Shown here: positions 4,906-18,095 of the stretch, one piece after another
How the letters are laid out: the number at the start of each line of letters is the position of its first letter
Position numbering within the stretch: the stretch's first letter is position 1
Notes under the pieces: model-generated
Databases searched by the model: none
The model's input: the letters and a program-made list of their open reading frames with translations, nothing else
Told to the model about the DNA's origin: nothing
Program-made: the position numbers and the translations under genes
Assembly (NCBI GenBank): GCA_024280815.1
Contig: JAJRPL010000044.1
Span: forward strand, 1 to 34,939
Length of the DNA stretch: 34,939 nt
Direction: 5' to 3'
Source of the DNA: Bacteroidota bacterium
Lineage (GTDB): Bacteria; Bacteroidota; Bacteroidia; Flavobacteriales; Flavobacteriaceae

Positions 4906-6870
<1,965 letters not shown>

Positions 6871-6916: not shown

Positions 6917-6996
6917 AATAGGTGATTAATAACGGAAGTTATTAACAAGTTTTCCCAGCTTTTAATGAACTTAAAAACATTTCTTTTTATATAAAA

Positions 6997-7032
6997 GAAA
7001 CAGCCTAATATAGAAATACATTAAACTGTTTC
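6997..7032 (-). terminator. Hairpin, family 1 (GAAACAG...CTGTTTC), downstream of tandem unit A
   Basis: GAAACAG(6997-7003)...CTGTTTC(7026-7032), homologous to copies at 7629, 8162 and 8584. Confidence 0.7.
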
Positions 7033-7077
7033 AACTCATCATAGCAATTAATTCTTTGTATCACTATAATAAATTTG

Positions 7078-7389
7078 TTATAAATCTTTTTGCTCTATAA
7101 TTTTACCTGCATTATTAAATAATACTTCAATACTAGCCGTATCGTCTTTAGTCAATTGCACATAATATACTTCTTGACCATCTAATATTGATTTAAAAGC
7201 TTTACCTGCTGTATAATTAGAAAATTCTGAAGTTATAGCATTGGTAATTGCTTCAGGTAATTCACCTACTTGAATTTCACTTTTTTCTTGTTGGATAGTC
7301 TCTGCAGTGGCTTCAACTACATCTTGAGCGAATACGGTACTTGTTAAACTTAATGTCACAAATACAATTAAATAACTTAGCTTTCTCAT
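7078..7389 (-). CDS. Small exported PepSY-like protein (tandem unit A)
   Basis: MRKLSYLIVFVTLSLTSTVFAQ signal peptide; IQVGELPEAITNAITSEFSNYTAGKAFKSILDGQEVYYVQLTKDDTASIEVLFNNAGKII, PepSY-like. Confidence 0.75.
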   Translation of the reverse strand: MRKLSYLIVFVTLSLTSTVFAQDVVEATAETIQQEKSEIQVGELPEAITNAITSEFSNYTAGKAFKSILDGQEVYYVQLTKDDTASIEVLFNNAGKIIEQKDL

Positions 7390-7420: not shown

Positions 7421-7455
7421 CAAATGTAAATAGAGAATCTAAAGAGAATCTTAAG
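7421..7455 (-). promoter_or_regulatory. Promoter with 11-bp tandem direct repeat (unit A)
   Basis: -7 TACATTTG (7421-7428, minus), 3 bp gap, AGAGAATCTAA + AGAGAATCTTA (7432-7453). Confidence 0.75.
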
Positions 7456-7496
7456 TGTTTTTTTGAGTTAATAAAAGACATTATTAAAATAAAAAA

Positions 7497-7519
7497 AACA
7501 CGCTCAACAAAAGCGTGTT
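7497..7519 (-). terminator. Hairpin, family 2, downstream of unit B
   Basis: AACACGCT caacaaa AGCGTGTT with T tract on minus strand. Confidence 0.75.
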
Positions 7520-7628
7520 TTTTAAACGTTGTTCAATAATTTTGTAATATCGAACGTATTCTCAAAAATAGAGAGAAGTGTTTAAATTTAGAGTGTTTAT
7601 TATATTTTAATAAGTTGATTTGGAAAAA

Positions 7629-7668
7629 GAAACAGCTTAACTTTGTAGTAAAAACATTAAGCTGTTTC
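7629..7668 (-). terminator. Hairpin, family 1, downstream of unit B
   Basis: GAAACAGCTTAA...TTAAGCTGTTTC (12-bp arms) then TCTTTTTCC on minus strand. Confidence 0.8.
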
Positions 7669-7708
7669 AGTAAAAGCAATCAACCCAATTTGCTTTATTT
7701 TTTAACAA

Positions 7709-7924
7709 TTACTCAGGATTTTCAACTTCCTCAGTAGCTTCCTCAACTTCATCTTCTTTTTTATCATCAACGGCTTCTGTTGCTTCTTCGGTAGCTTCAA
7801 CTTCGGTAGCTTCAACTTCTGTTGCTTCAACAGCTTCTTCTACTGCTGTTTCTTCTTGTGCGAATGTATTTGTACTGATTAAACATAATGCAGCAAATAC
7901 AAATAGGTAACTTAACTTTTTCAT
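7709..7924 (-). CDS. Small exported acidic low-complexity protein (unit B)
   Basis: MKKLSYLFVFAALCLISTNTFAQ signal peptide; VEATEVEATEVEATEEATEAV repeats; C-term EDEVEEATEEVENPE. Confidence 0.75.
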   Translation of the reverse strand: MKKLSYLFVFAALCLISTNTFAQEETAVEEAVEATEVEATEVEATEEATEAVDDKKEDEVEEATEEVENPE

Positions 7925-7966
7925 AATTTTTGTTTTTAATTATTAGTGTTAATTGTTTTGTTATGA

Positions 7967-8001
7967 CAAACGTAAGAAGAGAATCTAAAGAGAATCTAAA
8001 G
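7967..8001 (-). promoter_or_regulatory. Promoter with 11-bp tandem direct repeat (unit B)
   Basis: -7 TACGTTTG (7967-7974), 3 bp gap, AGAGAATCTAA x2 (7978-7999). Confidence 0.8.
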
Positions 8002-8063
8002 TATTGAATATACTTTTTCGGAGTAAAGTTAGAGATGTTTGGATAGAGTTATGTTACAAAAAA

Positions 8064-8085
8064 AACACGCTATATAAAGCGTGTT
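8064..8085 (-). terminator. Hairpin, family 2, downstream of unit C
   Basis: AACACGCT atataa AGCGTGTT. Confidence 0.75.
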
Positions 8086-8161
8086 TTAATCAATTTCTCT
8101 TAGGGGAGAAATTTTTAAACTTAGAGTGTTTATTGTATTCTGATAAGTTGATTTGGAAAAA

Positions 8162-8202
8162 GAAACAGCTTAATTTTGTAGTAAAATATATTAAGCTGTT
8201 TC
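8162..8202 (-). terminator. Hairpin, family 1, downstream of unit C
   Basis: GAAACAGCTTAA...TTAAGCTGTTTC. Confidence 0.8.
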
Positions 8203-8243
8203 AATTAAAAGCAATCAACCCAATTTGCTTTGTTTTTTAACAA

Positions 8244-8483
8244 TTACTCAGGATTTTCAACTTCCTCAGCAGCTTCTTCAACTTCATCTTCTTTTTTAGC
8301 TTCAACAGTTTTTTTAGCTTCAACAGTAGCATCAGTTGCTTCATCTACAACTTCTTCAGTTGCTTCAACAGCTTCTTCTGTAACTTCAACAGCTTCTTCA
8401 GTTGCTGTTTCTTCTTGTGCGAATGTATTTGTACTGATTAAAAATAATGCAGTAAATACAAATAGGTAACTTAGCTTTTTCAT
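8244..8483 (-). CDS. Small exported acidic low-complexity protein (unit C)
   Basis: MKKLSYLFVFTALFLISTNTFAQEETATEEAVEVTEEAVEATEEVV...EDEVEEAAEEVENPE; paralogue of 7709..7924. Confidence 0.75.
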   Translation of the reverse strand: MKKLSYLFVFTALFLISTNTFAQEETATEEAVEVTEEAVEATEEVVDEATDATVEAKKTVEAKKEDEVEEAAEEVENPE

Positions 8484-8524
8484 GATTTTTGTTTTTAATT
8501 ATTAGTTTCTAATGTTTGTTATGA

Positions 8525-8559
8525 CAAATGTAAATATAGAATCTAAAGATATTCTAAAG
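8525..8559 (-). promoter_or_regulatory. Promoter with diverged 11-bp tandem direct repeat (unit C)
   Basis: -7 TACATTTG (8525-8532), 3 bp gap, ATAGAATCTAA + AGATATTCTAA (8536-8557). Confidence 0.7.
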
Positions 8560-8583
8560 TTATTGATTCTTTTAGTAAAAAAA

Positions 8584-8624
8584 GAAACAGCTTAATGTTG
8601 TAGTATAAAATATTAAGCTGTTTC
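8584..8624 (-). terminator. Hairpin, family 1, downstream of unit D
   Basis: GAAACAGCTTAA...TTAAGCTGTTTC. Confidence 0.8.
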
Positions 8625-8654
8625 AGTAAAAGCAATCAACCCACATTTACTTTA

Positions 8655-8948
8655 TTATTGTATTACTTTGCCTTCAGCATTATAATCTACTTCAATAGCT
8701 TCACCATCTTTAAATAATTGTATTGAATATATATATTGTCCGTTTTTTGAAGATGTAAAGACTTTTCCAACAGAGTATCCTTTATAATCTGTAGCCAATG
8801 CTTTTGCAATTGCTTCAGGAAGTTGATCTAAGTGAATTTCAGCTCTTTCTTGTTGAACCACTTTAGCTACTTGTTCTTCTTGTGCAAAAGTAGTTGTGTA
8901 GATTAAACTTAATAGTATGAATGCTATTAGAGTGCTTAATTTTCTCAT
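8655..8948 (-). CDS. Small exported PepSY-like protein (unit D); start trimmed to MRKLSTLIAF
   Basis: Signal peptide MRKLSTLIAFILLSLIYTTTFAQ; IHLDQLPEAIAKALATDYKGYSVGKVFTSSKNGQYIYSIQLFKDGEAIEVDYNAEGKVIQ; paralogue of 7078..7389. The longer ORF start (9023) would run through the shared promoter repeat. Confidence 0.75.
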   Translation of the reverse strand: MRKLSTLIAFILLSLIYTTTFAQEEQVAKVVQQERAEIHLDQLPEAIAKALATDYKGYSVGKVFTSSKNGQYIYSIQLFKDGEAIEVDYNAEGKVIQ

Positions 8949-8971
8949 GATGTTTATTTGTTTTGTTACCA

Positions 8972-9006
8972 TAAATATAGAAAGAGAATCTAAAGAGAAT
9001 CTAAAG
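8972..9006 (-). promoter_or_regulatory. Promoter with 11-bp tandem direct repeat (unit D)
   Basis: Weak -7 TATATTTA (8972-8979), 3 bp gap, AGAGAATCTAA x2 (8983-9004). Confidence 0.7.
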
Positions 9007-9088: not shown

Positions 9089-10351
9089 TTAAAAAATAAC
9101 AGAAATGGTATGAATTTCTTTTTCACAACTATAATTAAGTTGCCAATTATTGACATCGCAAATTTGTTTGATAATTGCTAAACCCAACCCAAGAGAATCT
9201 TTTAGAGTACTTTCTTTTTTAAAGCGATTGAAAAGGTTTTTAGGATCACCCTTTAAAGGTTTTCCTGTATTAGAAAAGATTAGTGTATCTTTAGTATAAG
9301 TGATATTTATTTTTCCGTTAGGGATGTTATGCTTAATTGCATTGCTCAATAAGTTAGAAATTAAAGTATCTACTAATATTGTATTAGCAGAGCTGATGTG
9401 GTCAGACAACTCTGTCTGTATAGTGATGTTTTTATTAATGATGAAATCCTCGTAGTTTTCAAGTGATTTTTCAATTAACTTTTTAAAAGACACCTCTTCT
9501 TTATTACTAAATTGTTGATTTTCTACTTTTGCCAAGAGCAGTAGTGTCTTGTTTAATTTAGAAAGACGGTTTCCTGCTTGGTAAATGGATTGCAATTGTT
9601 CTGATTGTTCTTTTGTTAAGTCTGATGATTGTAATAAGAGTTCAATTTTTGATTTCATAATAGCTAAAGGAGTTTGCATTTCATGAGATGCATTTTCAGA
9701 AAACTCTTTTAAATTATTAAAATCAGATTGTAATTTTTGTGTTAAGCTTTTTATAGAAGTGTTCAACTCTTTAAATTCATCAATATCTGAAGGTACTAAT
9801 TCAATAGTGTTTTGGTTTTGTATAGAGAAATTTTTAAGCTTATCAATATTTGTATAAAAAGGTTTCCATATTTTTTTTGAAATCTGAGTATTTAATATCC
9901 AAAGCCCAGACAATAACAATAAAATAATAATAAAAGTAGTAATTAAAATTACCCATATAAAATCTTGATTTCTAACTAAAGAGTTTCGTGCAATTATTTT
10001 ATATCGAACACCTTGTAAGGTTTCATATGAGGTTAATTGTCTATATTTTTCAAACTCATCAACACCTTCTCCTTGAATGAGCCTAAGAATTAATGTGTCT
10101 TTGTAAATTATGGTGTCTTTTGGATATAATTTGTTTTCGGCTTCATTTAATTCTTCAGGTTCTTCAAATATGGTTAATGGAACATCATATTTTACTCTCT
10201 TAGCGACAATCTCTTTATTGTAAAATAACTGATTGTCTAACCTATTATTCATTACATTGGTTAATACAAAAATAAGTATGGCACCAGAAAGGATAAATAT
10301 AATAATCGATAACCATAAATAAGTTCTGCCAGTTTTCCGTATGAGTTTCAT
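9089..10351 (-). CDS. Two-component sensor histidine kinase
   Basis: Two TM segments flanking a short extracytoplasmic region; FSENASHEMQTPLAIMKSKIE H-box; LSNAIKHN N-box; GLGLAIIKQIC. Confidence 0.9.
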   Translation of the reverse strand: MKLIRKTGRTYLWLSIIIFILSGAILIFVLTNVMNNRLDNQLFYNKEIVAKRVKYDVPLTIFEEPEELNEAENKLYPKDTIIYKDTLILRLIQGEGVDEFEKYRQLTSYETLQGVRYKIIARNSLVRNQDFIWVILITTFIIILLLLSGLWILNTQISKKIWKPFYTNIDKLKNFSIQNQNTIELVPSDIDEFKELNTSIKSLTQKLQSDFNNLKEFSENASHEMQTPLAIMKSKIELLLQSSDLTKEQSEQLQSIYQAGNRLSKLNKTLLLLAKVENQQFSNKEEVSFKKLIEKSLENYEDFIINKNITIQTELSDHISSANTILVDTLISNLLSNAIKHNIPNGKINITYTKDTLIFSNTGKPLKGDPKNLFNRFKKESTLKDSLGLGLAIIKQICDVNNWQLNYSCEKEIHTISVIF

Positions 10352-10393: not shown

Positions 10394-11080
10394 TTATTTC
10401 TCAACATCTGTGAATTTATAACCAAGCCCGTACATGGTTTGTAGGTAATCTGTCCCTTCTAGTTTCTTTATTTTTTTTCTTAGATTACCCATGTGAGTAT
10501 AAATGAAGTCATAGCTGTCTGCCATCTCTATATCATCACCCCAAAGATGTTCTGCTATTGATTCTTTGGTAAGTACCTTATTTTTATTGGTGATAAAATA
10601 TAATAGTAAATTGTATTCTTTTTTGGTCAATTCCATGTGTTTTCCATGAATTGTTACAGTTTTTGAACTTGGATCAATATTTATTTCATTAAATTGAATA
10701 CTACTATCATCACCATCAAAATTTCTACGCCTTATTAACGAATTAATCCTTGAATTGAGTTCTGCCAAGTGAAACGGTTTCGTAATGTAATCATCAGCAC
10801 CAAGATCTAATCCTTTTAATTTGTCATCTAAAGAGTTTTTTGCAGAAACAATTAACACACCAGTTTTTGAGGACTGTTCTTTTATTAATTCTAACAAATT
10901 TAATCCGCTACCATCAGGTAATGTGATGTCTAATATAATAATGTCATATCCAAAACTTATAATTTTATCTTCAGCATCAAAAAAGGAAGATGCACTTTCA
11001 CAAATAAAATCTTCGTTTTTTAAATAAGTAGTCATTGAATCGAGTAATTCAATTTCATCTTCAACAATTAAAATTTTCAT
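10394..11080 (-). CDS. OmpR/PhoB-family response regulator
   Basis: MKILIVEDEIELLDSM; DIIILDITLPDGSG; GADDYITKPFHLAEL; winged-helix C-term ELTKKEYNLLLYF...VLTKESIAEHLWG...YTHMGNLRKKI...TMYGLGYKF. Confidence 0.93.
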   Translation of the reverse strand: MKILIVEDEIELLDSMTTYLKNEDFICESASSFFDAEDKIISFGYDIIILDITLPDGSGLNLLELIKEQSSKTGVLIVSAKNSLDDKLKGLDLGADDYITKPFHLAELNSRINSLIRRRNFDGDDSSIQFNEINIDPSSKTVTIHGKHMELTKKEYNLLLYFITNKNKVLTKESIAEHLWGDDIEMADSYDFIYTHMGNLRKKIKKLEGTDYLQTMYGLGYKFTDVEK

Positions 11081-12109: not shown

Positions 12110-13773
12110 TTAATACGCATCATCATGTACATTAGCGACTGCTCTTCCAGAAGGATCATTCATGTTTTTAAAACTTTCATCCCATTCTAATGCGATTTTT
12201 GTACTACACGCTACAGAAGCTTCTTGAGGCACACATAAAGCGGCAGCATCACTAGGGAAATGTTCTGTAAAAATTGAACGGTAATAAAATTCTTCCTTTG
12301 AAGTTGGGGTTTGTAAAGGGAATTTAAACTTGGCATTTGCCAGTTGTTCATCGGTTATGGCTTCATTTACTACTTCTTTCAAGGTGTCAATCCAACTATA
12401 ACCAACACCATCAGAAAATTGTTCTTTTTGTCGCCAAGCCACACTTTTGGGTATCATATCTTCAAAAGCTTTTCTTACTACCCATTTTTCCATACGTTCA
12501 CCATTAATCATTTTGTCTTGCGGATTGATACGCATGGCAACATCCATAAATTCTTTATCTAAAAAGGGTACACGCCCTTCAATGCCCCAAGCGGCTAAAC
12601 TTTTATTGGCACGCAAGCAATCATACATGTGTAATTTACTCAATTTACGAACTGTTTCTTCATGAAATTCTTTCGCATTTGGTGCTTTATGAAAGTATAA
12701 ATAGCCTCCGAAAAGTTCATCAGCTCCTTCGCCAGATAGCACCATTTTTATTCCCATAGATTTGATAACTCTAGCCATTAAGTACATAGGTGTAGAGGCT
12801 CTAATTGTGGTAACATCATAAGTTTCTAAGTTGTAAATCACATCACGAATAGCATCTAATCCTTCTTGAATGGTGAATTTTATTTCATGGTGAATTGTAT
12901 CTATATGATCTGCGACTACTCGTGCAGCAGCTAAATCTGGCGAACCTTCTAATCCTACAGAAAAGGAATGTAATTGTGGCCACCAGGCATCTTTAGTATC
13001 GTCAGATTCTATACGTTTTTCAGCATATTTTTTTGCTATTGCAGAGGTAATTTATGAGTCTAACCCTCCAGAAAGTAATACTCCATATGGTACATCAGAC
13101 ATCAATTGTCTATGAACAGCAGCTTCTAATGCTTCTTTAATTTCTTGAATACTGGTTTCATTATCTTTTACAGCGTCATATTCCGTCCAATCTCGATGGT
13201 ACCATTTAACAAGTTTTCCATTACTACTTGACATATAATGACCTGGAGGAAATAATTCTATTTTGGTACAAACGCCCTCTAAAGCTTTTAGTTCAGAAGC
13301 AACATAGAAAGTCCCGTTTTGATCCCATCCAATATATAATGGAATAATACCCATGTGATCTCTCGCAATAAAATATTCATCTTTTTCAACATCATAAATA
13401 GCAAAGCCAAAAATTCCATTCATTTCATCAATAAAATCAACACCCTTCTTTTGGTATAATGCTAAAATAACTTCACAATCAGATTCTGTTTGAAAATTGT
13501 ACGAACCTTCAAATTGTTTTCGTAACTCTCTATGGTTATAAATTTCGCCATTGGCAGCTAAAATTAGAGACTTATCCTCATTAAATAGAGGCTGCTTACC
13601 TGAAGCAGGATCAACAATAGCTAGGCGTTCATGAGCTAATATAGCATTATCCTCACTATGAATTCCACTCCAATCTGGACCTCGATGACGAATTTTTTAG
13701 ACATTTCTAAAACTTGAGGTCTTAATACCTCAACATTTTGCTTTAAATCGAATGCACATACAATTCCACACAT
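12110..13773 (-). pseudogene. asnB: Glutamine-hydrolysing asparagine synthetase B, disrupted by a -1 frameshift and an in-frame TAA
   Basis: MCGIVCAFDLKQNVEVLRPQVLEMSKK, frameshift in T6/A6 run 13693-13698, then RHRGPDWSGIHSEDNA...; VLLSGGLDS*ITSAIAKKYAEKR with stop at 13052-13054; then TTIRASTPMYLMARVIKSMGIKMVLSGEGADELFGGYLYFHKAP. Confidence 0.88.
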
Positions 13774-17920: not shown

Positions 17921-17950
17921 TTTGTAAATTCAAAAAAATGATTACATTTG
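17921..17950 (+). promoter_or_regulatory. Promoter of trp operon
   Basis: -33 TTTG (17921-17924) and -7 TACATTTG (17943-17950), 18 bp apart; 17 bp before the leader ATG. Confidence 0.7.
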
Positions 17951-17967
17951 TCTCAATCAAATTAAAC

Positions 17968-18030
17968 ATGAAAATAGTTTTAAATACAAATTGGTGGTGG
18001 TGCTCTCGAAACTCAACATTCGTGAAGTAA
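17968..18030 (+). CDS. trpL: trp operon leader peptide, 20 aa: MKIVLNTNWWWCSRNSTFVK
   Basis: Short ORF with TGG TGG TGG at 17992-18000, between a promoter and a terminator, upstream of trpE. Confidence 0.85.
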   Translation: MKIVLNTNWWWCSRNSTFVK

Positions 18031-18061
18031 TCCTATTATCGTATTTAAAAATAAAATATAT

Positions 18062-18095
18062 AAAGGCTTGTCAATCACGACAGGCCTTTTTTATT
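18062..18095 (+). terminator. trp attenuator terminator
   Basis: AAAGGCTTGTC aatcac GACAGGCCTTT followed by TTT; 11-bp stem with one G-U pair. Confidence 0.85.

Follow-up and report, generated by a model that had tools for sequence, protein, structure and literature searches.

Gene content of the locus

The window, by which we mean the whole 34,939-nucleotide stretch of DNA analysed (contig JAJRPL010000044.1 of a Flavobacteriaceae bacterium), carries on its minus strand an array of four short genes next to the genes of a two-component system. The sensor histidine kinase gene (9089..10351) encodes a protein that scores 437 bits with the PorY-family model NF052314 (cut-off 350), and the response regulator (RR) gene (10394..11080) encodes an OmpR/PhoB-type protein in which the receiver domain (Response_reg, PF00072) and the winged-helix domain (Trans_reg_C, PF00486) both score above their cut-offs; this RR is the predicted binder of the operators described below. 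The short genes, which we refer to by their first coordinate, encode a secreted PepSY-like (DUF2874-type) protein of 97 aa (8655..8948), two acidic Glu/Ala-rich secreted proteins of 79 aa (8244..8483) and 71 aa (7709..7924) that are paralogs of each other, and a second secreted PepSY-like (DUF2874-type) protein of 103 aa (7078..7389). The downstream border of the array is gyrB (4906..6843, minus strand), which also follows the array in G120, the other species of the genus, and in two further relatives (G025 and G150).

The products of genes 7078 and 8655 score 17-18 bits with PF11396, below its gathering cut-off of 28.3 bits (E 0.007 for 8655). Their homologs behind the same operator in relatives score above this cut-off, and both window proteins are related to the second domain of those PepSY-like proteins (hhalign probability 96.8%). 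A structure model of the 7078 product is confident over residues 34-103, with pLDDT >90 in 61 residues, and its best matches are 3u1w, 4k61, 4hbr, and 3db7, which predicts a PepSY-like fold. In matching these structures and in being secreted, the 7078 protein resembles the DUF2874/PepSY_like proteins (BT0923, BACUNI_01296), from which the window proteins differ as short single-domain versions that fall below the Pfam cut-off. Family searches with the duplicated acidic proteins 7709 and 8244 returned no clear family.

Two features elsewhere in the window are recorded here. At 17945-18072 on the plus strand, ahead of the genes from 18414, lies a Bacteroidete tryptophan peptide leader RNA (RF01692), whose 62 bits exceed the gathering score. 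Within 12110-13423 on the minus strand, ORF 12110-12841 matches only the C-terminal residues 312-554 of the 554 of asparagine synthase B, which suggests either a truncated or frameshifted gene or an assembly error at this place.

Four operators at a fixed distance from -7 elements

A sequence-only reading of this DNA had described four tandem 11-bp repeats ahead of the short genes, each 3 bp from a minus-strand -7-like element; all four are present, and the 3-bp gap is exact in every case. Compared with two tandem copies of AGAGAATCTAA, the repeats at 8983-9004 and 7978-7999 have no mismatches, the one at 7432-7453 has one, and the one at 8536-8557 has three. The -7-like elements next to them are TATATTTA (8979-8972), TACGTTTG (7974-7967), TACATTTG (7428-7421), and again TACATTTG (8532-8525). 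Dinucleotide shuffles of the window gave a chance expectation of 0.01 for 22-mers with three or fewer mismatches, compared with the four seen, and none of 100 shuffles contained four repeats. The window holds no other match to the 22-mer, and no copy was found upstream of the RR gene, where the best site within 200 bp has 9 mismatches in 24 positions and resembles those in shuffled sequence; on both counts the earlier description was accurate.

The repeat itself was upheld and its phasing revised, as it is better read as CTTTAGAWTNN on the coding strand, which gives the operator CTTTARAWTNN-CTTTAGAWTNN-N5-TANNTTTG. In this register the operator-promoters, all on the minus strand, are CTTTAGATTCT CTTTAGATTCT CTTTC TATATTTA before gene 8655 (8972..9006), CTTTAGAATAT CTTTAGATTCT ATATT TACATTTG before gene 8244 (8525..8559), CTTTAGATTCT CTTTAGATTCT CTTCT TACGTTTG before gene 7709 (7967..8001), and CTTAAGATTCT CTTTAGATTCT CTATT TACATTTG before gene 7078 (7421..7455). 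All four promoters face leftwards, and the start codon of the short gene that each one serves is 23-42 bp past the -7 element. In the promoter numbering of Flavobacterium johnsoniae, where TANNTTTG occupies -12 to -5 (PMC6847099), half-site 2 spans -28 to -18 and half-site 1 spans about -39 to -29, over the weak -33 element.

The spacing was analysed in the window and in 20 loci of relatives that had been fetched solely for encoding a relative of the neighbouring kinase, with a search that used the two half-sites alone and left the -7 element out. This search returned 68 sites compared with 20 in reversed sequence; TANNTTT stood at offset 7 in 42 of the 68, and at any other offset no more than 5 times. 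This fixed distance between half-sites and -7 element is consistent with an activator overlapping the upstream promoter element. Among 67 distinct sites from the fetched loci, the consensus is CTTTARAWTNT for half-site 1 and CTTTAGAWTT for half-site 2, and the G of half-site 2 is conserved in 99% of the sites; at the same position half-site 1 has G or A about equally often. These values are relative to a preselection of sites with at most two mismatches to CTTWARAWT per pair and TANNTT at the fixed offset. At some promoters (L043 4012/4001 and 4650/4639; L035 7741/7730; L040 12500/12511 and 11445/11456), a third half-site lies upstream of the two in the same 11-bp register.

Candidate operators elsewhere in the same genome

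The genome-wide scan that the sequence-only reading had suggested was run on the source assembly, which is incomplete (72%, 482 contigs). With the 22-mer it yielded one extra match with three mismatches (C358:2566), which was discarded because it lies inside a coding region. The generalised operator identified eight further candidate sites on other contigs, compared with none for the reversed-pattern control. They precede, for example, genes for an apiosidase-like enzyme (C112), a beta-helix protein (C358:4836), and a secreted protein of no named family (C387); the candidate at C358:2555, inside a coding region, is probably a chance match. One candidate operator is shared by the two species of the genus, where it precedes an orthologous gene of ~100 aa (C92, and C111 of G120). 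At L080:2550 and L089:2903 (both minus strand), operators stand 229 and 166 bp before orthologous ~100-aa genes of the two species, and leaders of this length may contain an additional small RNA or ORF.

The operators track the neighbouring response regulator

OmpR/PhoB regulators bind tandem direct repeats with 11-bp periodicity next to promoters, and the window has this arrangement, with two direct half-sites of ~11-bp period at a fixed promoter position. The sequence-only reading had proposed that the neighbouring RR activates all four units, and had named conservation of the repeat in genomes lacking this RR as one observation that would speak against it. The exact 22-mer was too narrow for a search across 251 genomes, and the motif was rephased and loosened. 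In a set of 151 genomes, two or more boxes were present in 14 of the 20 with a kinase ortholog compared with 2 of the 131 without (Fisher p = 2e-13, a value made optimistic by kinship among the genomes). Counted as sites, there were 62 in the 20 kinase-bearing genomes and 18 in the 131 others, against 2 and 21 for the reversed-pattern control. One of the two exceptions, G141, does encode such an RR, and an operator lies 20 bp ahead of the start of that gene (L096).

The position of the operator also points to this RR. In 11 of the 20 loci an operator lies 4-21 bp before the RR start codon, a placement never reached in 200 shuffles of each, and these 11 RRs form one supported clade (96/90). The window RR groups with those of G120, G025, and G150 (81/92), and this group has no operator before the RR and has the array instead, which explains the copy missing from that position in the window. 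The genomes with the most diverged RRs (G019, G129, G133, and G011) have no box. In a kinase-profile scan of named genomes, the box was found only in the Nonlabens locus among 74 Bacteroidota loci, which makes the operator the property of a clade rather than of PorY-family kinases at large. Two further observations concern individual relatives. G148 has two whole kinase/RR loci (L036 and L037), each with an operator before the RR. In G076, near a long-branch RR, a perfect 11-bp tandem of the variant half-site CTACAGATTTC likewise lies 5 bp from TAGGTTTG (L047:12414, minus strand) and precedes an outer-membrane receptor-like gene; this is possibly an operator that changed together with its regulator.

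A different OmpR-type regulator of the same genome might bind the boxes, with the neighbouring RR a bystander; many regulators of this type exist, and no box precedes the RR gene of the window. We consider this improbable, because the box stands before the ortholog of this very RR in 11 loci, the layout follows the tree of this RR, and the boxes are concentrated on the contig that carries the kinase/RR pair.

The genes behind the box in relatives bear on a second alternative. They encode an ArnC-like glycosyltransferase, an LpxE-like PAP2 phosphatase, and an LtaS/OpgB-like sulfatase, all of which score below equivalog cut-offs, as well as PepSY_like proteins, an outer-membrane barrel protein, and an OEP channel. 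The four window units are evidently related by duplication, with the leaders and signal peptides of 7709 and 8244 86-96% identical, and the repeats could accordingly be read as a mere by-product of tandem gene duplication with no regulatory role. That reading is contradicted by the comparison, since an identical operator at identical spacing precedes unrelated genes in other genera, and we give it almost no credence.

Based on these comparisons, the box is almost certainly the binding site of the neighbouring RR, and the repeats are best read as operators through which this adjacent OmpR/PhoB-type RR would activate the short units (probability roughly 0.88). The proposed link to the RR thus gains support from relatives; the idea that four genes are what it controls needs widening, as the driven units in relatives are not always genes. 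In a search of open papers, neither this operator nor any direct-repeat operator of the OmpR type in Flavobacteria came to light.

Relationship to the PmrA/PmrB and PorX/PorY systems

The best NCBIfam model for the RR is PmrA, at 166 bits compared with a cut-off of 330, and the second- and third-best of its solved relatives are BasR/PmrA of Klebsiella. The PmrA box is CTTAAT-N5-CCTAAG; its half-site 1 contains the -35 element, and PmrA reads bases through Asn188, Asn196, and Arg210 (PMC3973317, PMC4660055). In an alignment mapped by hand, PmrA Asn196 and His193 correspond to N199 and H196, both invariant in 20 RRs, and the position of Arg210 is occupied by Tyr217. DrrD has the same His/Asn pattern, so this match is merely supportive. 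Set against the PmrA-type box CTTAAK-N5-CTTAAK, the box described here, CTTTARA-N4-CTTTAGA, has an equal period and related letters, and its half-site 2 is nearly always CTTTAG.

The resemblance to PmrA/PmrB is one of an OmpR-family RR with tandem half-sites of almost the same letters and an 11-bp period, the first of them overlapping the upstream promoter element, and targets that in relatives include ArnC-like and lipid-A-phosphatase-like enzymes. No lipid A modification gene with a box was found in the window's 72% complete genome; the targets visible in the window are the PepSY-like and acidic proteins. Further differences from PmrA/PmrB are a sigma-ABfr -7 promoter in place of -35/-10, Tyr in place of Arg210, and a kinase that matches the PorY-family model and scores 70 with the PmrB model (cut-off 314). 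The system thus appears to work like that of PmrA, but we do not class it as PmrA/PmrB, given an RR score under the cut-off and a kinase that falls within the PorY-family model.

What the system has in common with PorX/PorY is a kinase that scores above the PorY-family cut-off of NCBIfam. PorX consists of a receiver and a PglZ domain, has no DNA-binding motif, and is unlinked to porY (PMC5005315), whereas the RR here adjoins its kinase and has a DNA-binding Trans_reg_C domain. Since PorX has no DNA-binding domain, the system is not assigned to PorX/PorY either.

A shared 3' hairpin module and units without ORFs

Each window gene is followed on the minus strand by a conserved 3' UTR module, which behind gene 8655 (8577..8654) comprises GGGTTGATTGCTTTT and the terminator hairpin GAAACAGCTTAA...TTAAGCTGTTTC. 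The other copies lie at 8155..8233 (gene 8244), 7622..7698 (gene 7709), and 6990..7066 (gene 7078, the most diverged). A G-rich loop (AGCAAATTGGGTTGATTGCT), which has diverged at 7078, and a terminator stem of 12-13 bp make up the module. In G120 the same module is found in two ORF-less units that alternate with coding PepSY-like units. In G150 and G025, every operator unit between the kinase gene and gyrB has no ORF longer than 18 aa and has a strong terminator at its end; these units share CTGAGGGGATTAAT and ATTAAGCTRTTTTAATT, not the module of the window's genus, so the two RNA types are only possibly homologous. The G120 array breaks its assembly, as the end of L030, the 783-bp contig L052, and the end of L087 share nearly the same PepSY-like gene, and any count of its units from these contigs is approximate.

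No Rfam family reached its gathering score at the locus. When a covariance model of the module (R1) was run against the 151 genomes, strong copies were confined to the window's genus, and most other good matches belonged to a distinct conserved element, which lies in the 3' UTR of a lipoprotein gene that has no box. That element, AAATTTTGGTTGGTTATTTAGTTTAGAAACCGTTTAAAG...CTTTAAGCGGTTTC, is located past the stop codon of this gene, which encodes ~312-317 aa, in at least 10 Flavobacteriaceae genera (L178, L180-L184, L186, L188, L192, and L193, at about 1501-1575 of each); it has changes on both stem sides, no box nearby, and a layout like that of the window's 3' module.

These units raise the question of what the array makes. 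One answer is that it mainly produces RNA under the same RR, as small RNAs that stand alone or are cut from 3' UTRs and that have a G-rich loop and a terminator at the end, with the proteins second or optional. The units of G150 and G025, all ORF-less with terminators, the two such units in G120, and the sharing of the module by coding and non-coding units within the genus argue for it, as does the comparison of 8655 with 8244 and 7709 in the window, which gives 73-74% identity for the 3' UTR and 48-56% for the mature coding parts. There is also a precedent, in that CpxR-driven cpxP yields CpxQ from its 3' UTR (PMC4817254). On the other side, recent duplication of the terminator or gene conversion would mimic such conservation, covariation in the module is slight (2 of 20 pairs), and the PepSY-like ORFs are kept as proteins between species. 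Complements of the G-rich loop are not usefully enriched in the window's own genome either: the 38 matches, two of which are modules of the array itself, compare with 20 for the control and give no usable target list. We regard a mainly RNA-producing array as a credible possibility that falls somewhat short of even odds.

The parallel with CpxR and cpxP/CpxQ is that an OmpR-family RR would drive an mRNA that encodes a small secreted protein and carries a distinctive RNA module at its 3' end; the differences are the several tandem copies, the ORF-less units in relatives, and the absence of sequence relation. The analogy suggests, without proof, that RNA forms part of the array's output, as CpxQ does for cpxP. 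The wider claim, that the clade's main conserved RR output is RNA, made by an expandable tandem array of box-driven units between kinase and gyrB, with a constant G-rich-loop/terminator module that would serve as a small regulatory RNA and an optional ORF that has been gained or lost, is offered tentatively, as one we are inclined to doubt.

Proposed mechanism and implications

We propose that an envelope signal, itself part of the proposal, would activate the kinase and that a dimer of the phosphorylated RR would bind directly, head-to-tail, on CTTTARAWTNN and CTTTAGAWTNN, immediately upstream of the sigma-ABfr -7 element. The bound RR would replace the weak -33 contact and recruit polymerase at a -7-only promoter, so as to activate rather than repress transcription. 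PmrA and PhoB activate likewise at their boxes. Each operator would drive one short unit, and the four predicted transcripts, two for PepSY-like proteins and two for acidic secreted proteins, would each end in the common 3' hairpin/terminator module; roles for the small proteins and the RNA module are likewise inferred.

In Bacteroidota, with promoters unlike those of E. coli, the sites to which ordinary response regulators bind have, to our knowledge, been little mapped. The outcome of this analysis is a regulon defined by sequence, with a fixed operator-promoter geometry at a -7-type promoter, and tied to kinases of a family otherwise associated with type IX secretion. It places a PmrA-like box before envelope-modifying genes in another phylum and names candidate small RNAs that would be under the control of the regulator.
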